Below are positions 43,210 to 54,618 of a stretch of DNA of 64,000 nt, one piece after another (within the stretch, counting starts at the first letter, position 1; each line of letters starts with the position of its first letter). The DNA is from Saliphagus infecundisoli. Lineage in GTDB: Archaea; Halobacteriota; Halobacteria; Halobacteriales; Natrialbaceae. The notes under the pieces are model-generated. The model was not told the DNA's origin and searched no databases. It saw only the letters and a program-made list of their open reading frames with translations. The position numbers were made by a program, and so were the translations under genes. The stretch covers positions 434,001 through 498,000 of the forward strand of contig NZ_JAIWHV010000001.1 in the NCBI RefSeq assembly GCF_020177375.1, read 5' to 3'.

Positions 43210-44244
43210 GTGACATCCCCCGACCTCGGACTGGCGACGGTCGTCGGCGGCTTCGTCGCCGCCGTCGCCCTTCTCTCGGTCGTCCTCGCGGTCGTCGGGC
43301 TCGAGCCGACGGTCTCGGTCCTCGTGGGCGCCGACCGGCTCGGCCTCGCGGCGCTTTGCTGTGCGGTCGCCCTCTGGGCCGTGGCCTGGTCGTACACGCT
43401 CTCGATCGTCCTCTCGGTCCTCGGGGTCGCCCACGGTCCCGTCGAGGCCGGACTGCTGTTCGGCAACCTCGTCTTCGCCAACAGCGTCGCGCCCTCGACG
43501 TACCTCGGGGGGGAGCCGTTCGCGGCGTTCCTGTTCTCGCGGCGGACGGGGACGGGCTACGAGACCGGGTTCGCCGCGGTCACGAGCACCGATCTCCTGA
43601 ACTACGCGCCGATGGTGCCCCTGGCGGGGGTCGGACTCCTCTACGTGACGACGACGGCCGTCGTCGGCGGGCGGACCGAACTCGCCCTGGCCGCGGTCTT
43701 TTCGGCCCTGCTCGCCCTGATCGCGGTCGTCGTCGCGGGCTGGCGCCGGCGCGACCGGGCCGCCGTCGCCCTCGCGACGACCATCGGCGGGCTCTCGACG
43801 CGGATGAGTGGGGTCGTCCCGGGCGTGCGCCCGGTCCGGCCGGCGCCCCTCGAGGCCCGGATCCGAACCTTCGTCCGGGAGGTCGAGTCCGTCGCCGACG
43901 ACCGCTCGAGCCTGGCGCTCGGGCTCGGCTACTCGGCGCTCGGCTGGCTCTCGCTGTCGGCAGCGCTGTGGTTCGCGCTGTACGCGGTCGGCCACGCGAC
44001 GTCGCCGGCGGTCGCCCTCTTTGCCGTCCCCATCGCCGCGGTTTCGAACGTCCTCCCGGTTCCCGGCGGGATCGGCGGCGTCGAGTCGGTCCTCATCGTC
44101 CTGCTGGTCGCCGCCGCGGGGGTGCCGGCGCCGACGGCGGCCGCGGCGACCCTGCTCTACCGGGGCGGGACCTACTGGCTCCCGCTCGTCGTCGGCGGCG
44201 GGACGGTCGTCCTCGCCCAGGGTCCTCGTCGCGGGCCGATCTGA
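43210..44244 (+). CDS. UPF0104 / AglD-like membrane protein (lysylphosphatidylglycerol-synthase membrane family)
   Basis: Encodes 344 residues from a GTG. It has eight or so predicted membrane helices and the family motifs FANSVAPSTYLGGEPFAAFLF and VSNVLPVPGGIGGVESVLIVLL. Members include the membrane part of haloarchaeal AglD, which works with a glycosyltransferase in S-layer glycan assembly, and lipid flippase-like proteins. It is followed after 37 bases by a GT4 glycosyltransferase, so a lipid- or glycan-transfer role is reasonable. It is too short to carry a glycosyltransferase domain itself. Confidence 0.88.
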   Translation: MTSPDLGLATVVGGFVAAVALLSVVLAVVGLEPTVSVLVGADRLGLAALCCAVALWAVAWSYTLSIVLSVLGVAHGPVEAGLLFGNLVFANSVAPSTYLGGEPFAAFLFSRRTGTGYETGFAAVTSTDLLNYAPMVPLAGVGLLYVTTTAVVGGRTELALAAVFSALLALIAVVVAGWRRRDRAAVALATTIGGLSTRMSGVVPGVRPVRPAPLEARIRTFVREVESVADDRSSLALGLGYSALGWLSLSAALWFALYAVGHATSPAVALFAVPIAAVSNVLPVPGGIGGVESVLIVLLVAAAGVPAPTAAAATLLYRGGTYWLPLVVGGGTVVLAQGPRRGPI

Positions 44245-44281: not shown

Positions 44282-45388
44282 ATGTCCCACACGGAGACCG
44301 TCGGTGCCTTCACCGATCTCTACCTGCCGACGGTCAACGGCGTCACCTCCACCGTCGGGCTCTGGCGCGAACACTGGTCCGCCCGCAGGGGACCGATGTC
44401 GGTCGTCTACCCGCGGGTCGAGGGCTACGAGCCCGCGGAGGACGAACACCCCGTGCGGAGCGTCCGCGCACCCTTCTTCCCGCGATACCGACTCGGCCTC
44501 CCGCTGGTCCCCGACGGGCTCGCAGCGCCCGACCTGGTCCACGTCCACACGCCGTTTACCGTCGGCTACGCGGGCCTCCGCTTTGCCCGCGAGCGGGGGC
44601 TGCCGGTCGTCGCCTCCTACCACACGCTGCTGGGCGAGCGCGCCGACCGGATCGCGCCGCGGCCGTTCTCGGACGGGCTCCGCTCGGTCTGTCGGGGCTA
44701 CGAGCGTGCGTTCTTCGAGCGGGCCGACCGCGTCATCGTCCCGACTGCCTTCGCACGCCGGCACCTCCTGGAGACGGTGGGCGCCGACGTCGACGCCCGC
44801 GTGGTCTCGAACGGGATCGACACCGACCTCTTTCGCCCCGTCGATCCCTCGAGGCTCCGGAGCCGGTACGACCTCCCCGACTCCCCCCTGGTCGGCTACA
44901 CCGGTCGCCACGGCCCCGAGAAGAACCTCGGGGAGGCGATCGACGCCGTCTCCGGCACCGGCGTCTCCCTCGCAATCGCCGGCGACGGCCCCGCTCGCGG
45001 GGAGTGGGAGGCCCGGGCCCGCGAGGCCGACGCCGACGTTCGCTTCCTTGGCTTTCTCGACCGGGCGGAGCTCCCCGCGTTCTACTCCGCGCTCGACGCC
45101 TTCGTCTTCCCGAGCCCCGTCGAGACCCAGGGCCTGGTCGCCCTCGAGGCGACGGCCTGTGGGACGCCCGTCGTCGCCGTCGACGCCGGCGCGCTCACCG
45201 AGTTCGTCATCGGCGGCGAGACCGGCTACCGCTACCGCCGGGGCGACGTCGAGGACTTCCGGTACGCAATCCGGCGCGCCCTCGCCGAACGCGACCGTCT
45301 CTCCGATCTCTGCGTGCGCCGCCGGTCGATGCTCTCGGTCGAACACTCCGTCGGACAGCTCGCCGGGATCTACGACGAACTCGTGTAG
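44282..45388 (+). CDS. GT4-family glycosyltransferase
   Basis: Encodes 368 residues. Both Rossmann halves of the GT-B fold are visible. The N-terminal domain has AFTDLYLPTVNGVTSTV and HVHTPFTVGYAGLRFARE; the C-terminal domain has SNGIDTDLF, YTGRHGPEKNL, IAGDGP and the nucleotide-sugar-binding E-x7-E motif (ETQGLVALEA) with GTPVVAVDAG. The N-terminal layout (NGVTST) is like that of glycolipid mannosyltransferases. It probably adds a sugar to a lipid; the acceptor is unknown. It follows the UPF0104 gene by 37 bases, likely in one operon. Confidence 0.92.
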   Translation: MSHTETVGAFTDLYLPTVNGVTSTVGLWREHWSARRGPMSVVYPRVEGYEPAEDEHPVRSVRAPFFPRYRLGLPLVPDGLAAPDLVHVHTPFTVGYAGLRFARERGLPVVASYHTLLGERADRIAPRPFSDGLRSVCRGYERAFFERADRVIVPTAFARRHLLETVGADVDARVVSNGIDTDLFRPVDPSRLRSRYDLPDSPLVGYTGRHGPEKNLGEAIDAVSGTGVSLAIAGDGPARGEWEARAREADADVRFLGFLDRAELPAFYSALDAFVFPSPVETQGLVALEATACGTPVVAVDAGALTEFVIGGETGYRYRRGDVEDFRYAIRRALAERDRLSDLCVRRRSMLSVEHSVGQLAGIYDELV

Positions 45389-45836: not shown

Positions 45837-46067
45837 CAGTCCCACCGCCCCGACTGCGTGCTCGCCTCGAGACCGTTCATACGCCCTTTCCCGACACCCA
45901 GCCGCTTTAGCTCACGGTCCGTGCACCCTCTCGCGACCTGCGTTCCCGTACAAAAACGTACCGAACGATCCACGCTGCCGTCCGAATAGTTCAACCGTCT
46001 TTCGGGGAGTATTTTCCCGAACTGCTAACTGTTCGTACGGTCCACCGTACTCCCGGTGGGTGATCGC

Positions 46068-46877
46068 ATGGACACCGAGATCCTGTCCGTCGTTCTCCAG
46101 CGATGGGAGGTCGTCGACAGCCTGCGCGAGGAACCGAAGGACAAGCGGGCGCTGGTCGGGGACGTCGACTGTTCCCGATCGACGGTCGACCGGGCGGTCC
46201 GGGAACTCGAGTCCATCGGCGTCGTCGAGTACCGCGAGGGCGACCACGGGGTCACGCCGCTTGGCGAGACCGTCGCGAGCGGGCTCGAGGCGCTGGTGGA
46301 GACCGTCGAGCGCCGGATCGAACTCGAGCCGTTCCTCGAGTGGATTCCGGAAGGCGAGTTCGATCTCGGCCTCGAACATCTCTCGGGAGCGGAGCTGTGG
46401 GTGCCCGAACCCGGCGACCCCTGGGCCATGGTCAACCGACACGTCGCGGCCCTGGAGGCGGCCGACGACGTCCGGTGTGTGCTCCCCCTGACCGGGTTAC
46501 ACGCCTACGAGGCGGTGTACGAGGGGGTCGTGGCCGGCGGGCGTGCCGAGTTGATCGTCAGCCCCGACGTCGCCCGGACGTTCCGGACTGATCCGGCCTA
46601 TGCCGACATGACGGCCGAGCTTGCGACGACCGGCCGGTATCGGCTCTCCCGGTACGACGGCTCGATCCCGTACTTCGTCGGACTCCTCGACGATATCGTC
46701 CAGATCGGCGTCGACGAGGCGGGCGAGCCGCGGGCGTTACTGGAGACTACCGACCCGGAGGCCCGACGCTGGGCCGAAGGCGAGATCGAGGCCTACGAGC
46801 GGGACGGGACCCGGGTCGATCTCTCCGTCGACCTCCCGGCGGACCCCTCGACTGACTCCCCCCGGACCGGGTCGTAG
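46068..46877 (+). CDS. FilR1-type helix-turn-helix regulator
   Basis: Encodes 269 residues from the ATG at 46068; ATG 46056 is a frame-consistent alternative that adds four residues. Residues 1-75 are a winged helix (LVGDVDCSRSTVDRAVRELESIGVVEYREG). Residues about 120-250 are the sensor domain of the methanogenesis-regulator FilR1 type (VVAGGRAELIVSPDVARTFRTD; SRYDGSIPYFVGLLDDIVQIGVDEAGEPRALLET). Haloarchaea have many such regulators with unknown ligands. The gene ends 29 bases from the convergent ATP-grasp gene, so it is a candidate regulator of that module by position only. Confidence 0.87.
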   Translation: MDTEILSVVLQRWEVVDSLREEPKDKRALVGDVDCSRSTVDRAVRELESIGVVEYREGDHGVTPLGETVASGLEALVETVERRIELEPFLEWIPEGEFDLGLEHLSGAELWVPEPGDPWAMVNRHVAALEAADDVRCVLPLTGLHAYEAVYEGVVAGGRAELIVSPDVARTFRTDPAYADMTAELATTGRYRLSRYDGSIPYFVGLLDDIVQIGVDEAGEPRALLETTDPEARRWAEGEIEAYERDGTRVDLSVDLPADPSTDSPRTGS

Positions 46878-46906: not shown

Positions 46907-48103
46907 TCAGCCGCCACGTCGCCGGATCGCTCGCTCGAGTTCGGTCCGTGCCTGGCGGGCGACCGGCCGCGGGTCGTCGGGGTGGAGCATGTCGAACGCC
47001 GGAACCTCACAACAGGAGCGACCGATCTCCGCCGCCCGGGCGAGCAGCGACGGGCGCTCGACGAGCGCCGACTCCTTCCGGCGGACGCTCACGAGGTGTT
47101 CGACCTCGCCGTAGAGGTAGTGGCTGCCGACGCCGGGCTCGTAGCCGGCGTCGATCCCGTCCGTGCGTCCGGTGACCGACAGCCAGTACCACCAGGGGAA
47201 CTCCGAACCGGCCCGGGTCGCACACGCCAGCGACTGCCACATGCGAGGGTTGATCTCGACCAGCGAGAACTCGCCGGTCTCGTCTCTGACGTACTCGATG
47301 CAGGCGAGGCCGTGCCAGTCGAGTTCGTCGAGGATCGCCCGCCCGGCGGCCTCGAGCTCCGGGATGTCGACGGACTCCCGGAAGACGCCGCCGCTGCCGG
47401 TGTAGGAGTCGCCCCGGATCTGGCGGTGCTGGAACGTTCCCAGGGGACGGCCCTCGTCGTACAGCGCGCCGAACAGGTACTCCGTTCCGGACACGTACTC
47501 CTGGACGATCGGCTCGTGGCCCATCGTCGAGAGGAGCCCGTCGACGTCCGGCCGCTCGCCGGCGGGCACGTGTTCGATCGATTTGGCGATCCTCGACTCT
47601 CCGGGCTCGAGATCGTCGAGATACGCCTCCGTGAGGAGGTTGTACCGCGATTTGACGATCCGGTCGCCACGCCAGTCGTCGACCGCGGTCAGGAGTCGGG
47701 TCTCCGGAACCGCGACGCCGGCCGACTCGGCGACGTCTGCGAGCCGTTTGCGGTCGTGGACGGCCCGCAGGGTCTCGAACGGCGGGACGGTGACGTCGAT
47801 ATACCGCTCGAACTCCTCGCGGTACCGCGAGAGCAGGTAGGGGTCCTGCGGGCGGTGGGGAACGATCGTCCGGACGTCCGGGCGCGCGGCGAGGGCCAAC
47901 AGCGCGTCCCTGTAGGCGGGGAGATCGCTCGGCGGCGGGATCAGTACGGAGTCGTCGCAGTACCGCGAGGCGGAGGTCCCGAGGTCGGGGTCGTCGACCG
48001 CGGCGATCGTTCTCACCCCCTGCTTGCCGAGCGACCGGACGGAGGCGTAGCCGTGTGGATAGCGCGACGCCGTGACCACGGCGCCACCCTTCCGGTCAGT
48101 CAT
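46907..48103 (-). CDS. ATP-grasp carboxylate-amine ligase (COG3919-like)
   Basis: Encodes 398 residues. The N-terminal part carries a PreATP-grasp-like fold (GAVVTASRYPHGYASVRSLGKQGVRTIAAVD; SASRYCDDSVLIPPPSD). The ATP-grasp core follows with KSRYN, PIVQEYVSGTEYLFGALY, and the metal-binding ACIEYVRDETGEFSLVEINPRMW. Such enzymes join a carboxylate to an amine or thiol through an acylphosphate. No residues identify the substrate. Its ATG overlaps the stop of the asparagine-synthetase-like gene by eight bases, so both are made together. A C-terminal domain of about 100 residues is unassigned. Confidence 0.87.
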   Translation of the reverse strand: MTDRKGGAVVTASRYPHGYASVRSLGKQGVRTIAAVDDPDLGTSASRYCDDSVLIPPPSDLPAYRDALLALAARPDVRTIVPHRPQDPYLLSRYREEFERYIDVTVPPFETLRAVHDRKRLADVAESAGVAVPETRLLTAVDDWRGDRIVKSRYNLLTEAYLDDLEPGESRIAKSIEHVPAGERPDVDGLLSTMGHEPIVQEYVSGTEYLFGALYDEGRPLGTFQHRQIRGDSYTGSGGVFRESVDIPELEAAGRAILDELDWHGLACIEYVRDETGEFSLVEINPRMWQSLACATRAGSEFPWWYWLSVTGRTDGIDAGYEPGVGSHYLYGEVEHLVSVRRKESALVERPSLLARAAEIGRSCCEVPAFDMLHPDDPRPVARQARTELERAIRRRGG

Positions 48104-50045
48104 CGGCGATCACCCGACGCGGGGGACGCACCGGTGGCTCCGCCGACGAAGTTCGGTCCGGTGTGCCGGGGTCGCCCGCGAGGACCCGTGCCGTGGCCGG
48201 CATCGTCAGGAGGGTCACGAGGGTGTAGAGCTCGCCGACGTGGTTTTCCCCGTTGCAGTGCTCGTCGTACAGCCGCCGTACTTCCCCGGCGCTCATGCCG
48301 GGTACCGCGTCGGCGAGCGCGCGGTTCTCCGTCAGAACCTCGGTTACGAACCGGCTCGAGCGGAGCAGTTCTGCGTCGTCGAGCCACGGACCCTGGGTCA
48401 GATACGGCTCCGGCGGAGCCCGGGTCGAGTCACATTTCCGGCGCAGTTCCGTCAGGTGCTCGCCGGCGTACTTCACCGCGAACGGCCGCGAGAGCGCGAC
48501 GCCGGTGCTCGCGTGGGCGATTTCCGCGAGGTCGGGGGCGAGCCGGGCGACCGCCCGGTCGATCACGTTCCGCCGGAGCCGGTAGCCGACCGGCATCGAC
48601 AGGGAGAGCTCGAGGAGGCGGTTGTCAAGGTAGGGGGTTCGGTAGGGACGCAGTTTGCGGAGCCCGGTCTGAAAGCGCACGTCGTCGTCGTTCGAGAGCG
48701 GGTAACAGCCGCCGTAGTAGACGAGGTCGTCGAGCGAGTCGTAGACGACGCCGTGGTGGCGAATCTTCCCGCCGTCGCGGTGGATCTCCTCGTCGAGCAC
48801 GCTCCGGAGTTCCGTCGGCAGGTCGTAGCCGTCGTGGGCCCGCTCGACGAGGAGGTCGACGTAGCCGTCGATCGAGTCGACGGGCCGTTCGACCGGGAGC
48901 GTCACCGATCCCAGCCCGCCGAGCGGGACCGTCGGCGACGGTACGCCGTAGCCACGGAACAGCGAGTCGCCGTAGAGCCCAGAGAGCAGTCCGTCGACCC
49001 GCCCGGTTATCTCGGCTTCGAACCCGCTCGTGTACGGCTGGCTGAACCAGCCGTTGAACGTCGTCGCCCACCGGTTTCGCTCGGTCGCCCCGATCCGGTA
49101 GCCCGGTCCGCGACGGAGCCACTCGAAGGGCGTCCCGGTCTCCATGGCGACCCGCTCGGCGGTCCGTGCCTCCCTGTTCATCCAGTCGTTCATGTGAAAC
49201 GCCGTGGCGTCGGCGCCGGCGTCACAGAGCCCGGCGAGAGCGAGCCGGGAGTCGCTCCCGCCCGACAGGAGCACGCCGTACTCCCGATCCTCGCGGAGCC
49301 ACTCGTCGAGCACCGCCCGGAACCGGCCGACGAACTCGTCGACGAACCGCTCGAACGGCACCTCACAGGGGCGGTATCGGGGGCGCCAGTACTGGTCGGC
49401 AGAGACGGTGCCGTCGGTGAGGTCCATCGTCGTGACCGTTCCCGGGCGCAGTTTTTCGACGCCCTCGAGGGGCGTTCTCACGCCGAAGGTCCGGCGGAAC
49501 GCGAGGTATTCGTGGAGGTAGCCGGGGTGGAACGCAGTGTCGACCGCCGGGTGGTAGGGCAGGGTCTGGACGTTGGTCGAGAAGACGACCGTCCCGTCGT
49601 CGGGGCGGGTCCAGTACAGCGGCACCGTCCCGAACCGGTCGGTCGAGAGGAGCAACTGGCCGCGCTCGGGGTCGTGGATCGCGAGCAGGAAGTTCCCGTT
49701 GAGCCCGCACACGAACGACCTCCCGTACCGATCGTAGAGCGCGAGCGCGTAGTTCGCGGAGGCGACGGAGGCAGGTCGCGGCTCGTACGCCCTCGAGGGG
49801 CCGACCGTCTCGGAACCGTCGGGACCTCCGGAACCATCGGTGTGGGCGGCGCCGGCGTCGTGGCCGTAGAGTTCGCCGAGCACCCAGCACGTTCGTTCGT
49901 CCGTCCCGGGAGATCCGTCGCGGGGGTATCGCGAGCCGGCGGCGATCGAGAGGCCGTCGGCCTCGTGGACCGTCCCCCCGACTCCGATCCAGTTGTCGAA
50001 CGCGCCCGGCGCGTCGGCGCCGACCGTGCCGTGGAGGTCGCTCAT
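48096..50045 (-). CDS. Asparagine-synthetase-like protein lacking the glutaminase cysteine
   Basis: Encodes 649 residues. Residues 1-220 have the shape of the N-terminal nucleophile glutaminase domain (GLNGNFLLAIHD; STDRFGTVPLYW), but the chain starts Met-Ser-Asp-Leu, without the Cys2 that splits glutamine. Residues 230-560 are the synthetase domain with the pyrophosphate loop SGGSDS (261-266), and YLDNRLLELSLSMPVGYR. It probably activates a carboxylate as an adenylate and uses another amine or free ammonia, as beta-lactam synthetase does. The true reaction is unknown. An ATP-grasp ligase gene follows and overlaps by eight bases. Confidence 0.85.
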   Translation of the reverse strand: MSDLHGTVGADAPGAFDNWIGVGGTVHEADGLSIAAGSRYPRDGSPGTDERTCWVLGELYGHDAGAAHTDGSGGPDGSETVGPSRAYEPRPASVASANYALALYDRYGRSFVCGLNGNFLLAIHDPERGQLLLSTDRFGTVPLYWTRPDDGTVVFSTNVQTLPYHPAVDTAFHPGYLHEYLAFRRTFGVRTPLEGVEKLRPGTVTTMDLTDGTVSADQYWRPRYRPCEVPFERFVDEFVGRFRAVLDEWLREDREYGVLLSGGSDSRLALAGLCDAGADATAFHMNDWMNREARTAERVAMETGTPFEWLRRGPGYRIGATERNRWATTFNGWFSQPYTSGFEAEITGRVDGLLSGLYGDSLFRGYGVPSPTVPLGGLGSVTLPVERPVDSIDGYVDLLVERAHDGYDLPTELRSVLDEEIHRDGGKIRHHGVVYDSLDDLVYYGGCYPLSNDDDVRFQTGLRKLRPYRTPYLDNRLLELSLSMPVGYRLRRNVIDRAVARLAPDLAEIAHASTGVALSRPFAVKYAGEHLTELRRKCDSTRAPPEPYLTQGPWLDDAELLRSSRFVTEVLTENRALADAVPGMSAGEVRRLYDEHCNGENHVGELYTLVTLLTMPATARVLAGDPGTPDRTSSAEPPVRPPRRVIADD

Positions 50046-50354
50046 CTCCCCACCCCGGTCGCGGGCGCGCCGTCGTCGGCCGGACGCACCGTCACGACTC
50101 CCCGCCGGTCTCTCGATACCCCACCGCTCCGGCCCACGGCTCCCGATCGAAGGCGTCTCATTCGGTGGCCGACACCTGTGACGTCCCGGGCAATCAATGC
50201 GGGAGCCCCCTTCCAGAACCTGAGAGCCGACCTGCAGCGCCTGAGAGAGGCGGCCCGGTTCGAGCCGGAAGCCAGGGGAACCCGCCTCACCGCCGTCCTC
50301 TCGGACGGGCCCGCCACTCGAGGGTTTTTCACTCCCGCGGACCGACCCTCGCGC
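50046..50354. other. 309-base divergent intergenic region
   Basis: On the right a GGGTTTTTCAC (50320-50330) about 30 bases before 50355 is a TATA-like element for the epimerase. On the left a TTGATTG near 50195-50201 may drive the amidotransferase operon. A 39-codon minus-strand frame from ATG 50161 ends in a TGA overlapping the amidotransferase ATG; it is basic and uses rare AGA codons, so it is not called as a gene. Confidence 0.4.
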
Positions 50355-51341
50355 ATGACCGGCGCCTTAGTGATCGGCGGTACCCGCTTCATCGGTCGAC
50401 ACCTCGTGAACGACCTTCTGGACCACGAGTACGACGTCACCGTCTTCAACCGCGGAAATCACGGGAACCCGTTCGCGGACGACGACCGAGTCTACCGGAT
50501 CGAGGGCGACCGGACGAACGACTCGGCGCTCGAACTCGCCCGCGAACGAGCGGCCCCCGACATCGTCTTCGACATGGTCGCCTACGAGCCACGGGAGGTG
50601 CGGGCGGCGACGCGGATCTTCGCCGACTCGGCGTACGTCTACGTCTCCAGTGGCGCCGCCTACGCCGACGAGGAGATCCCCAAACGCGAGGGCGAGACCG
50701 CCCTCGAGCCCTGCACCAACGAGCAGGCGACCGACGACTCGGGGGAGACGTACGGCAACCGGAAGGCAGAGGGCGACCGGACGGTCTTTGCGGCCGCAGA
50801 GCGGGGCGTTCGGGCCATGAGCGTCCGTCCCTGTATCGTCTACGGCCCTCACGACTACACCGAACGGTTCGACTTCTGGATCGACCGCGTCCGCGAGTAC
50901 GACCGCGTGATCGTCCCCGGCGACGGCACCACCCTCTGGCACCGCGCTTACGTCGGGGACGTCGCGAGCGCACTCCGGGTCGTCGCCGAAGCGGGTGAAG
51001 CGGGCGAGGCGTACAACGTCGGCGACCGGCGACTGGTCACCCTGGCGGAGTCGATCGAGCTGATCGCCGACGCCATGGGCGAGGAAGTGGAGGTCGTCCA
51101 CGCCGGCTCCCGCGAACTCGCGGCGGGCGGGCTCTCCCCCACGGACTACGTCCTCTACCGGGAGTACCCTCACGTGCTATCGACGGCGAAGCTCGCGGCT
51201 CTCGGCTGGGACTCGACGCCCGTGGCCGAGGCGATCGACCGAAGCGTCGCAGACCACGTCGACAGCGACCGCGACGGGAGCGAACACGCCCCCGACCGGG
51301 CGGCCGAGGAGCGCGTGCTCGGGGTTCTGGACACGCTGTGA
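50355..51341 (+). CDS. NAD-dependent epimerase/dehydratase (extended SDR)
   Basis: Encodes 328 residues. The Rossmann motif is VIGGTRFIGRHLVNDLL, the SDR core has YVSSGAAY and ETYGNRKAEGDR, where YGNRK stands for the usual YxxxK catalytic pair, and RPCIVYGPHDYTERFDFW is the substrate region. It is similar to the isoflavone-reductase-like or nucleotide-sugar epimerase group; the substrate is not clear. The ATG at 50355 follows a TATA-like element by about 28 bases. The frame extends far upstream but only through antisense sequence. It is convergent with the GCS2 gene. Confidence 0.9.
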   Translation: MTGALVIGGTRFIGRHLVNDLLDHEYDVTVFNRGNHGNPFADDDRVYRIEGDRTNDSALELARERAAPDIVFDMVAYEPREVRAATRIFADSAYVYVSSGAAYADEEIPKREGETALEPCTNEQATDDSGETYGNRKAEGDRTVFAAAERGVRAMSVRPCIVYGPHDYTERFDFWIDRVREYDRVIVPGDGTTLWHRAYVGDVASALRVVAEAGEAGEAYNVGDRRLVTLAESIELIADAMGEEVEVVHAGSRELAAGGLSPTDYVLYREYPHVLSTAKLAALGWDSTPVAEAIDRSVADHVDSDRDGSEHAPDRAAEERVLGVLDTL

Positions 51342-51356
51342 GCCCGCTCGGCGGAG

Positions 51357-52424
51357 TCAGCCGGTCAGTCCGGCGACGTCCTCGCGGAGCCGCTCTGCGT
51401 ACTCGAGCCGGAGCCCTCGAACGTCCTCGCGTTCGATCCGGTCGGCCTCGAACTCGTGGGTCAGCGGGCCGTACTCCCCGACCCGAAATCCCATCCGTTC
51501 CAGATAGGCAGTGACGGCCAGCGACGCCAGACCATCGTGGATGGCGCGTTCGACGTACTCGGAGAGCGCCTCGAACCGGGGGAGGACGATTTCGTCCTCA
51601 GTACGTTCCCCCTCTTCGCCCTCGATGCGGACCACGCTGGTGTGGACGTCATCCATCACCTCTCGGACCCCCTCGACTAGCCGGAGCAGTTCGCTCGGCA
51701 GCGTCGCGTCGGGCGCGCGCCACTCGACGGTCGGCATCTCCCGGCGGAGCCTGATGGGAGTCCAGACGGCGTCGAACGGCGAGAACTCCGTCTCGACGCG
51801 CTCGCGGTCGATCCCCCGTTCGACCGCCCGCTCGACGAACTCCGCGTAGCGCTTCTCGAGGCGGCGTTTCCACTCGGCGACCGTTCCGGTGTAGGGCCAT
51901 AGCCGGCCGTGATCGGGGAGGTCGGCGTAGCTCCGCCCGCGATAGCAGCGGGCGCGTGCGGAGGCGGCGACCCGCTGTCCCCCGCAGTACGGCGAGGAAT
52001 GACACAGCGCGAGCGCCGGGTCCAGTGCCGTCAGGACGTTCAGCTGGTCGGCGACGTTTCGCTGCTCGACGTGGACGTGGGTCCCCGCACAGTGTTTCGT
52101 GTGGGCGAAGGGGTCGCCGACGACCACCTCCTGGATCCGGGTCCGGTCGGAAGGCAGCGTCTCGATCGGACCGGCGTCGATCGGAGTTCCGAGGGGGACG
52201 AGCAGCCTGTCGCGTTCCGCGGCGGCCTCGAGAGCGAGCCGGAGCCGATCGGCGAACGTCTCCCGAAGCTCCTTGATCGTCGCACACGGCGGCGTCTTCA
52301 GCTCGAAGAGGGGCTCGACGAACTCCTCCTCGGCGAAGGGGAGGTCCGCGGCGAGGGGCGCCGCCGGAGCGAGCGCGCCGTCCGGGTCGATCACCCAGTA
52401 TTCGACTTCGACGCTCGTTTTCAT
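51357..52424 (-). CDS. Glutamate-cysteine-ligase-like protein (GCS2 family)
   Basis: Encodes 355 residues. It matches the GCS2/YbdK family: VEVEYWVIDPDG, FAEEEFVEPLFELKTPPC, HCAGTHVHVEQRN, and the ALCHSSPYCGGQRV block, then PTVEWRAPDATLPSELLRL. The family makes gamma-glutamylcysteine-type bonds with ATP. Haloarchaea use gamma-glutamylcysteine in place of glutathione; whether this is the main enzyme or a paralogue with another acceptor cannot be decided here. The upstream AGGAGG sits about nine bases before the ATG. The gene diverges from the methyltransferase. Confidence 0.87.
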   Translation of the reverse strand: MKTSVEVEYWVIDPDGALAPAAPLAADLPFAEEEFVEPLFELKTPPCATIKELRETFADRLRLALEAAAERDRLLVPLGTPIDAGPIETLPSDRTRIQEVVVGDPFAHTKHCAGTHVHVEQRNVADQLNVLTALDPALALCHSSPYCGGQRVAASARARCYRGRSYADLPDHGRLWPYTGTVAEWKRRLEKRYAEFVERAVERGIDRERVETEFSPFDAVWTPIRLRREMPTVEWRAPDATLPSELLRLVEGVREVMDDVHTSVVRIEGEEGERTEDEIVLPRFEALSEYVERAIHDGLASLAVTAYLERMGFRVGEYGPLTHEFEADRIEREDVRGLRLEYAERLREDVAGLTG

Positions 52425-52607
52425 ACGACTCCGCCTCCTATACTGGATTCAAGCGTAGTATCGGCCAACATAAGACTATTTTAGTGGACGAACGGCTGAT
52501 AACGGGATAAACGTTCGCATGGTTTGGAACCGCTACGATCGGATGGCTCCCGACCCGGTGGGGAGAAGGACGCAACCGTTTTCACGGGGTGCGCTCGATC
52601 GGGGAAC

Positions 52608-53519
52608 GTGTTGCCGGATCTCCAGCGGGACGTAACGAGGGCGCGAGAACTCCTCGAGGACGGCGAGTACGGACGCCTCCTCGAGGGCGCGGCCGGCCGG
52701 CTGGCGCGGCCGGTCGCCGACGAGTACCAGATCCGCCGCGGGCTCTCGGAGCTGGCGCGAGCGCGCAATCCGTCGGTCCGGGCGGTCGAGCGAGCGCTTC
52801 GCTGTGTCCACGAGGACGGGTTTCTTCCCTACGAACGCTCGCAGCTGGCGGCCGTCGAGAAGCGCCGGCAGGCCCTCGCGGCCGACGAGACGCCCGTCGA
52901 GTACCACCTCCACGGGCCCAGCGACGAGGGACTCACGGAGGAGGTCTACGAGGGCTACCGCCACGAGGTCCGGGTGAGCGACTTCCCGGGGGCGAAGCCG
53001 GAGTACGGCCCCCTGCTGTACGCGCTGGCGCGCGAACTCGACCCCGATCGGGTGCTCGAGCTGGGCACCTGTCTGGGGATCTCGGGGGCCTACATCGCCG
53101 GTGGCTTCCGCAACGACAACCGGCTGCTCACCGTCGAGGGCGGCGAGCCCCAGGTCGGGATCGCTCGCGAGACGTTCGCGGAACTGGGGGTCTCCGACCA
53201 CACCACGGTCCGCCACGATCGCTTTCAGGACGTGCTCCTCGAGGGCGGGGAGAGCCCCCGCTTCGAGATAGCCTTCCTCGACGGCCACCACAACCGCGAG
53301 GCGACCCTCGAGTACTTCGAGGCGCTCTACGAGCTCGCCGAATCCGGCGCGGTCGTCGTCTTCGACGATGTCGTCGGCTACTCGGAGGGGATGGACGGCG
53401 CCTGGCGAACGATCGCGGCCGACCCCAGGGTCGAGCTCTCGGTGACGACCGAGCGCTACGGGATCGCGGTCCTCAAGGCCGGAATCCCGGAGAAACGAGA
53501 TTTCAGCGTCCCCGTCTGA
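52608..53519 (+). CDS. SAM-dependent methyltransferase
   Basis: Encodes 303 residues from a GTG at 52608, chosen because the stretch before it (from 52524) has no domain features; the true start may be a little further up or down. A helical N-terminal region of about 100 residues precedes a class I methyltransferase with VLELGTCLGISGAYIAGGF (SAM motif I), an acidic strand LLTVEG, and AFLDGHHNREATLEYFEAL, as in the methyltransferase_24 group. The last strand is VVVFDDVVGYSEGM. The substrate is not known. It leads into egsA 40 bases downstream. Confidence 0.85.
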   Translation: MLPDLQRDVTRARELLEDGEYGRLLEGAAGRLARPVADEYQIRRGLSELARARNPSVRAVERALRCVHEDGFLPYERSQLAAVEKRRQALAADETPVEYHLHGPSDEGLTEEVYEGYRHEVRVSDFPGAKPEYGPLLYALARELDPDRVLELGTCLGISGAYIAGGFRNDNRLLTVEGGEPQVGIARETFAELGVSDHTTVRHDRFQDVLLEGGESPRFEIAFLDGHHNREATLEYFEALYELAESGAVVVFDDVVGYSEGMDGAWRTIAADPRVELSVTTERYGIAVLKAGIPEKRDFSVPV

Positions 53520-53559
53520 GGCCCGCCACAGGTAAATGGGCTCGCGGGGAAGGGGCCCC

Positions 53560-54618
53560 ATGTTCGAGAAATCGACGTGGATCCGCCTCCCCCGGAACGT
53601 CGTCGTCGGCCACGAGGTGTTGGGCCGGACCCTCGAGGTGGTAGACGACGTCCACCTCTCGGGGCGGCCGCTGCTCGTGACGAGCCCGACGCCCCGCGAG
53701 CTGGCGGCCGACCCGATCGCCGCACAGTTCGAAGAACGCGGGATCGACCCCCTGGTCGTCACGGTCGAGACCGCGAGCTTCGACGCCGTCGAGGAGGTGA
53801 TCGCGGAGGCAGAAGCCGGCGACGCCGCCTACCTCGTCGGGGTCGGCGGCGGGAAGCCCATCGACATCGCGAAGATGGCGAGCGACCACCTCGGGATGGG
53901 CTTTCTCTCGGTGCCGACGGCGGCGAGCCACGACGGGATCGTCTCCAACCGGGGGTCGGTGCCCGACGGCGACACCCGGCACAGCGTCGCCGCCGAGCCC
54001 CCGCTGGCGGTCGTCGCCGACACGGGGATCCTCGCGAACGCGCCCTGGGAGCTGACGACCGCGGGCTGTGCGGACATCATCAGCAACTACACCGCGGTAA
54101 TGGACTGGCGGCTCGCGAACCGACTGAAGAACGTCGAATACTCGGAGTACGCCGCCGCCTTAGCGGAGATGACGGCCGAGATCCTCGTGGACAACGCCGA
54201 CCTGATTCGGCCGGGGATCGAGGAGTCGGCTTGGATCGTCACCAAGGCGCTGATGTCCTCTGGCGTGGCGATGAGCATCGCCGGCTCCTCGCGGCCCGCC
54301 AGCGGCGCCGAACACCTCTTCTCTCACCAACTCGACCGGCTCGTCCCCGGCGCCGCGCTCCACGGCCACCAGGTCGGCGTCGGCGCGATCATGACCGCCT
54401 ACCTCCACGGCGGCGACCGCGGGATCTGGACCGACATTCGGGACGCGCTGGCGAGCATCGACGCGCCGACGACCGCCGACGAGCTCGGCATCGACGCCGA
54501 CACCGTCGTCGAGGCGCTTTCGACCTGTCACGCGATCCGGGACCGCTACACCATCCTGGGCGACGGGATGGAGGAGGAAGCCGCCCGACAGGTCGCGCGC
54601 CAAACGGGCGTGATCTGA
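53560..54618 (+). CDS. egsA: sn-Glycerol-1-phosphate dehydrogenase
   Basis: Encodes 352 residues from the ATG at 53560; a frame-consistent start at 53536 adds eight residues. The enzyme reduces DHAP to sn-glycerol-1-phosphate, the backbone that sets the stereochemistry of archaeal lipids. Motifs: VGVGGGKPIDIAK (nucleotide binding), VPTAASHDGIVSNRGSV, TTAGCADIISNYTAVMDW, and SGAEHLFSHQLDRL with HGHQVGVGA, holding the metal-ligand histidines. The gene follows the methyltransferase and is convergent with the ABC-2 permease gene. Confidence 0.97.
   Translation: MFEKSTWIRLPRNVVVGHEVLGRTLEVVDDVHLSGRPLLVTSPTPRELAADPIAAQFEERGIDPLVVTVETASFDAVEEVIAEAEAGDAAYLVGVGGGKPIDIAKMASDHLGMGFLSVPTAASHDGIVSNRGSVPDGDTRHSVAAEPPLAVVADTGILANAPWELTTAGCADIISNYTAVMDWRLANRLKNVEYSEYAAALAEMTAEILVDNADLIRPGIEESAWIVTKALMSSGVAMSIAGSSRPASGAEHLFSHQLDRLVPGAALHGHQVGVGAIMTAYLHGGDRGIWTDIRDALASIDAPTTADELGIDADTVVEALSTCHAIRDRYTILGDGMEEEAARQVARQTGVI

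Follow-up and report, generated by a model that had tools for sequence, protein, structure and literature searches.

Within a 64,000-nucleotide stretch of the haloarchaeon Saliphagus infecundisoli (contig NZ_JAIWHV010000001.1, positions 434,001 to 498,000; hereafter the window), two adjacent genes on the minus strand encode predicted ligases of different folds. The first gene (48096-50045) encodes a 649-aa asparagine-synthetase-like (Asn-synthetase-like) ligase, scoring above cut-off with Asn_synthase (35.7 bits) as well as GATase_7 (43 bits). The second (46907-48103) encodes a 398-aa putative carboxylate-amine ligase with an ATP-grasp fold in its structural model. As stated in an earlier note on this DNA, both overlap by 8 bases; the overlap is exact (48096-48103, GCCGATGACTGACC) and contains the ATG start and the TGA stop. 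That note had merged the pair with an epimerase-type short-chain dehydrogenase/reductase (SDR), a GCS2-type ligase, and a methyltransferase into a three-ligase, five-gene cluster. Evaluation of gene order and distribution supported the pair as a conserved unit, most plausibly forming amides outside core metabolism, and gave no support to the larger cluster.

An orthologous Asn-synthetase-like gene (~59-66% identity) was found in 14 Natrialbaceae genomes besides that of S. infecundisoli, an assembly of 4.53 Mb across 76 contigs. Thirteen of them were examined at the paired locus, the fourteenth (G242) being counted as paired from the orthologous gene alone. At all 13 loci the ATP-grasp gene lies directly downstream of the Asn-synthetase-like gene in constant order, with a junction overlap of 8 bases, or 11 bases in G189, G205, and Haloterrigena salina. 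The surroundings vary from locus to locus (helicase/nuclease, PMSR, asparaginase, and ATP-binding cassette (ABC) genes, among others). An alignment-based scan of 84,980 species genomes for the ATP-grasp protein yielded 48 loci. Among those with at least 60% identity, the partner adjoined in 18 of 19, the exception being Halogranum amylolyticum; it was found beside none of the loci below 60%. The pair also extends beyond the Natrialbaceae into Halorussus, Haladaptatus, and Halobium, often in convergent orientation: the two genes abut in Halorussus ruber and converge across gaps of 8 to 130 bases in Haladaptatus, Halobium, and HArc-gm2. Their recurrence as convergent neighbors shows that the pairing is more than a single frozen operon. 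Judged by sequence comparison, the ligase pair is a conserved two-gene haloarchaeal unit.

Haladaptatus pallidirubidus carries the pair twice on one chromosome (L233, L234), 0.55 Mb apart and with identical flanking layout, and a plasmid of Haladaptatus halobius (L235) carries it once; the duplicates and the plasmid copy are signs of recent movement. In Halorussus marinus and two relatives, two or three ATP-grasp paralogues stand next to each other without an Asn-synthetase-like gene (L247 7342-11188, L168, L170).

Phylogenetic analysis provided a further line of evidence. The paired ATP-grasp proteins form one clade (Shimodaira-Hasegawa-like approximate likelihood ratio support 99), in which two Halogranum copies are the sole unpaired members, and the pairing label changes only 2 times on this tree compared with a mean of 19.8 after shuffling. 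On the tree of the Asn-synthetase-like proteins, the label of the partners changes 5 times. Forcing these partners into a single clade, with nested Natronococcus paralogues allowed, was rejected by the approximately unbiased test (p-AU 0.0005); an earlier version of this test (p 5e-77) was inflated by the nested Natronococcus paralogues and is not relied on. We read this as an ATP-grasp lineage that appears to have kept an Asn-synthetase-like neighbor while the lineage of the partner changed. Such a change is stronger evidence for a working link than the inheritance of one operon.

The Asn-synthetase-like protein combines an Ntn-type N-terminal domain devoid of the catalytic Cys2 with an ATP-pyrophosphatase synthetase domain. 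Residue 2 is serine in the window protein, and none of 45 aligned relatives has cysteine in this column. Class II amidotransferases need Cys2 to take ammonia from glutamine. Consequently, glutamine-derived ammonia is an unlikely nitrogen source of the enzyme. The ATP-pyrophosphatase loop is present as SGGSDSR (residues 261-267), in agreement with the SGGxDS motif, and S261, G262, G263, S266, and R267 are invariant in the 45-member alignment (SGGxxSR). A glutamine-dependent asparagine synthetase of the AsnB type was rejected, although the pyrophosphatase loop is kept, on the basis of the absent Cys2 and a TIGR01536 (asn_synth_AEB) score of 91.2 bits against a cut-off of 267.1. The closest NCBIfam model, TIGR03104 (N-acetylglutaminylglutamine amidotransferase), reached 98.9 bits, its cut-off being 570.1. 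In the predicted structure (predicted local distance difference test (pLDDT) score 89), the top Foldseek rank was beta-lactam synthetase (1mbz, E 2.9e-18). Structural alignment gave Z 22.8 for 1m1z and Z 24.3 for TsnB9 (7ylz), the latter being the longest with 510 residues. In VIA-align, TsnB9, beta-lactam synthetase, AsnB, and human ASNS all fell within ~2.5 Z units.

More distant relatives of this protein reside in other contexts. In the same genome (contig C74, L070 6828-14868), a GCN5-related N-acetyltransferase (GNAT; Acetyltransf_8), a Lys/Orn N-monooxygenase, and an Asn-synthetase-like paralogue stand in tandem facing an ABC transporter, with a similar layout in L065, L066, L068, and L074. 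It looks like a hydroxamate siderophore pathway with an AsnB-like amide ligase in place of the expected IucA/IucC synthetase. In L042 (5148-10881), L043, L045-L049, and L051-L053, an Asn-synthetase-like gene is accompanied by a type I phosphodiesterase-family gene and a FemAB/GNAT-like transferase, in some cases with a DegT aminotransferase; such FemAB/DegT/phosphodiesterase-type runs recur in two haloarchaeal families. In all these settings, small molecules or glycans may plausibly receive amide bonds, which gives a hint in favor of amide formation by the pair. The second Asn-synthetase-like copies of Natronococcus (L207, L208, L210, L213) lie near a gene of 988-1243 aa, of which the L207 version has no Pfam match; L207 also encodes an aspartoacylase-like protein along with a second Asn_synthase/QueC-like one.

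The ATP-grasp protein was assigned on the basis of structure rather than domain score, since Pfam ATPgrasp_Ter remained below threshold (26.5 vs 29.1 bits). A sequence search of solved structures with the ATP-grasp profile gave no match at E 0.01. Its AlphaFold model (pLDDT 94.9) matches 2pn1 (Z 28.2), PurK (Z 25), and PylC (Z 24.5), with an L-amino-acid ligase also among the matches. Residues K151, R230, E283, N285, and R287 are invariant in 58 relatives, and E270 is conserved in 57 of them. By modeled fold and Mg/ATP residues (Lys, Glu, ExN), the protein is thus a predicted ATP-grasp ligase. The fold as such also covers carboxylases, e.g., PurK. No GNAT match was obtained for the 398-aa protein, the model showing an ATP-grasp fold from end to end.

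The remaining members of the proposed cluster follow upstream of the pair: the extended SDR of the epimerase/dehydratase type (50355-51341, plus strand, true start 50355; Epimerase 106.6 bits), the divergent GCS2-type ligase (51357-52424, minus strand; 60.7 bits), and a class I S-adenosylmethionine-dependent methyltransferase (52524-53519, plus strand; Methyltransf_24/O-methyltransferase). The next gene, absent from the earlier note, encodes glycerol-1-phosphate dehydrogenase (G1PDH; 53536-54618, plus strand; 524.5 bits vs cut-off 413), which supplies the archaeal lipid backbone. Every gene named in that note was located where it had been placed, with the five proposed cluster members borne out by domain scores or fold. 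This includes a UPF0104/LPG_synthase_TM membrane protein (43210-44244) and a GT4 glycosyltransferase (~44294-45388) 1.5 kb off, as well as a FilR1/HVO_A0261-type regulator (46056-46877), all on the plus strand. The regulator is convergent with the ATP-grasp gene and ends 29 bases from its stop codon; none was seen at other pair loci. A composition test for a genomic island revealed no step, with GC at 0.67-0.73 all along.

Co-occurrence of the pair with the epimerase, GCS2, and methyltransferase genes across haloarchaeal genomes had been suggested as a check, and the outcome spoke against the cluster, the genes being scattered independently. None of the 13 Natrialbaceae pair loci has an SDR, GCS2, or methyltransferase gene adjoining, and twenty 20-kb neighborhoods of GCS2 loci share no pair, SDR, or methyltransferase genes. 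Among 175 genomes of the order Halobacteriales, 77 have GCS2 relatives; among 101 genomes of the family Natrialbaceae, 73 have them, 82 have the SDR, and only two have the methyltransferase, its own genome counted. Among 22 SDR regions, 21 of them with the SDR called, none has GCS2, methyltransferase, Asn-synthetase-like, or ATP-grasp genes nearby. Instead, G1PDH is adjacent to the SDR in nine loci and separated by at most two genes in nine more (18/21), often followed by an ABC pair and a prolyl-oligopeptidase-type gene in the order also found in the window. The SDR is a conserved family gene of this old SDR-G1PDH-ABC-prolyl-oligopeptidase block and stands outside the ligase pair; its location here is explained by the neighboring G1PDH as older partner. 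As SDR loci with G1PDH close by lack GCS2 and methyltransferase, the interval between both genes is variable, and these two are incidental neighbors within it. The interval in the window (51341-53536) is a variable insertion spot with differing gene content among Natrialbaceae. A further divergent GCS2 paralogue lies ~120 kb off on the same contig (G000:C11:365683-366546). The window GCS2 is unlikely to be the main gamma-glutamylcysteine ligase of the genome, as contig C2 encodes a full-length GCS2 with 250 bits compared with ~60.

A single biosynthetic cluster of pair, SDR, GCS2, and methyltransferase making an amide- or gamma-glutamyl-linked compound can accordingly be regarded as highly improbable. 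It could draw on the physical closeness of the genes and on GCS2 being present somewhere in all 15 pair-carrying family genomes compared with 73 of 101 overall, a weak co-occurrence (p ~0.005, uncorrected for descent). This is opposed by the pair occurring without GCS2 in Halorussus ruber, by the pair, GCS2, and SDR loci examined elsewhere being devoid of these shared genes, by the near restriction of the methyltransferase to this genome, and by the older SDR partner. The alternating strands of the five genes further exclude an operon spanning them. On gene order and distribution, a five-gene, three-ligase pathway was rejected.

For the pair itself, we favor a two-gene cassette, Asn-synthetase-like followed by ATP-grasp gene, for a small diamide or dipeptide-like compound with two amide bonds, the second formed without glutamine; we assign this reading a probability of roughly 60%. 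The pair thus probably makes a small amide-linked molecule. The ATP-grasp enzyme would activate one carboxylate as acyl phosphate and join it to an amine. The Asn-synthetase-like enzyme would adenylate a second carboxylate and join the acyl adenylate to an amine without glutamine-derived ammonia. This amine may already be present in the substrate, leading to ring closure, or reside on a second small molecule, as in beta-lactam synthetase. The product would arise in the cytoplasm, with some lineages possibly linking it to a surface glycan; neither SDR nor GCS2 nor methyltransferase would take part. A more far-reaching version appears rather doubtful to us: a minimal two-ligase assembly line restricted to haloarchaea, which would deliver a hitherto undescribed dipeptide- or lactam-like product and require neither nonribosomal peptide synthetase nor ribosomal precursor nor glutamine. 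In this version, one ATP-grasp lineage would have taken on new Cys-less Asn-synthetase partners from different lineages on several occasions, as a way of varying the second bond.

Several observations weigh against the cassette. Long branches in the Asn-synthetase-like tree weaken the interpretation as partner change, and the second Natronococcus copies have no ATP-grasp gene nearby. Loss of Cys2 is still compatible with the use of free ammonia. The fold scores for TsnB9, beta-lactam synthetase, and AsnB lie less than 2 Z units apart, so that the fold cannot choose among hydroxyamidation, ring closure, and amidation. Furthermore, the position that we take, from an alignment by eye, to be that of the AsnB catalytic lysine is seemingly a histidine (His511, 42/45), and the activity may be altered or lost. 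Together with the missing Cys2 in 45 of 45 sequences, this apparent replacement could mean that the protein has lost its ligase function and accompanies the ATP-grasp enzyme in a degenerate or regulatory role. We consider this very unlikely: the pyrophosphatase loop is retained and 20 columns are invariant among 45 divergent sequences, with many others nearly so, as expected for an enzyme, and beta-lactam synthetase likewise lacks Cys2 yet is active.

Alternatively, the pair could decorate surface glycans, the ATP-grasp enzyme adding an amino acid to a uronic acid or peptide on the precursor of a glycan, which its partner would then cap or cross-link; in Natronococcus, it could contribute to the glutaminylglycan of the wall. 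This polymer is a gamma-linked polyglutamine (PMC4243693), and several Natronococcus species have the pair. Local gene content is partly in line: a GT2 gene overlaps the Asn-synthetase-like start in Halorussus ruber, and one ATP-grasp copy of Halogranum has in its vicinity a membrane protein weakly similar to PMT, which a 661-aa protein near the Halorussus ruber pair resembles by eye. In the window, UPF0104 and GT4 genes are found 1.5 kb from the pair, relatives are located with FemAB, DegT, and phosphodiesterase genes, and AslA with AsnH provides a bacterial precedent (PMC4155827). Nevertheless, the 13 Natrialbaceae pair loci share no conserved glycan genes, and the pair occurs in genera without recorded glutaminylglycan (Natronorubrum, Haladaptatus), rendering this alternative unlikely. 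An even weaker candidate is a compatible solute of the N-acetylglutaminylglutamine amide (NAGGN) type, for which the ATP-grasp enzyme would make a dipeptide and its partner amidate the terminal carboxylate to give an uncharged osmolyte. The hosts are extreme halophiles and haloalkaliphiles, TIGR03104 is the closest model, and AsnO-Ngg offers the same two-gene logic with an osmotic role (PMC8070244). However, the score is far below the cut-off, the ATP-grasp protein has no GNAT domain, the glutamine used by AsnO as nitrogen source would require the Cys2 missing here, and a presence in ~15 of 101 family genomes is odd for a general osmolyte.

Known archaeal small-molecule pathways are few, and the small size of a two-gene cassette that is conserved in Natrialbaceae and reappears in further haloarchaeal families would allow its expression and assay as a whole. 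The lack of the glutaminase Cys throughout the sampled Asn-synthetase-like family points to its members being amide ligases and not asparagine synthases, the label that automatic annotation likely assigns to them.

In the literature searched, no publication combined ATP-grasp, asparagine synthetase, and haloarchaea, and searches on siderophores, lasso/beta-lactam compounds, and glycosylation yielded nothing on the haloarchaeal pair. Among characterized single enzymes, the beta-lactam and carbapenam synthetases, the best Foldseek matches, share the Asn-synthetase fold, the missing glutaminase Cys, and the intact ATP-pyrophosphatase site, but identity is ~14-21%, no clavam or carbapenam genes were seen, and the haloarchaeal enzyme has a dedicated ATP-grasp partner. 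TsnB9, a hydroxyamidotransferase, provides the longest structural alignment at 15% identity, whereas no hydroxamate genes adjoin the haloarchaeal pair. The ATP-grasp partner resembles the carbamoyl-phosphate-synthase-like PRK06849/PRK12767 proteins, PylC, and L-amino-acid ligases in fold and catalytic residues, although the pair-linked proteins form a separate haloarchaeal clade. On the level of gene pairs, AsnO-Ngg of Sinorhizobium and Pseudomonas, an Asn-synthase-like enzyme and an ATP-dependent amide ligase for NAGGN (PMC8070244), is likewise encoded by adjacent genes with the Asn-synthase-like one first. It is bacterial, and Ngg has a GNAT activity for which the haloarchaeal ATP-grasp protein has no counterpart; by TIGR03104 score, GNAT domain, and Cys2, the pair does not belong to this system. 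In lactic acid bacteria, the D-Asp ligase AslA/Aslfm and AsnH form the D-Asn cross-bridges of peptidoglycan, the Asn-synthase-like enzyme working after the ATP-grasp one on a shared wall precursor; haloarchaea have no peptidoglycan, the bacterial genes are not described as an overlapping pair (PMC4155827), and the comparison is one of described functions. The resemblance to AsnO-Ngg as well as AslA and AsnH is one of logic, not of descent, and the haloarchaeal version is new.
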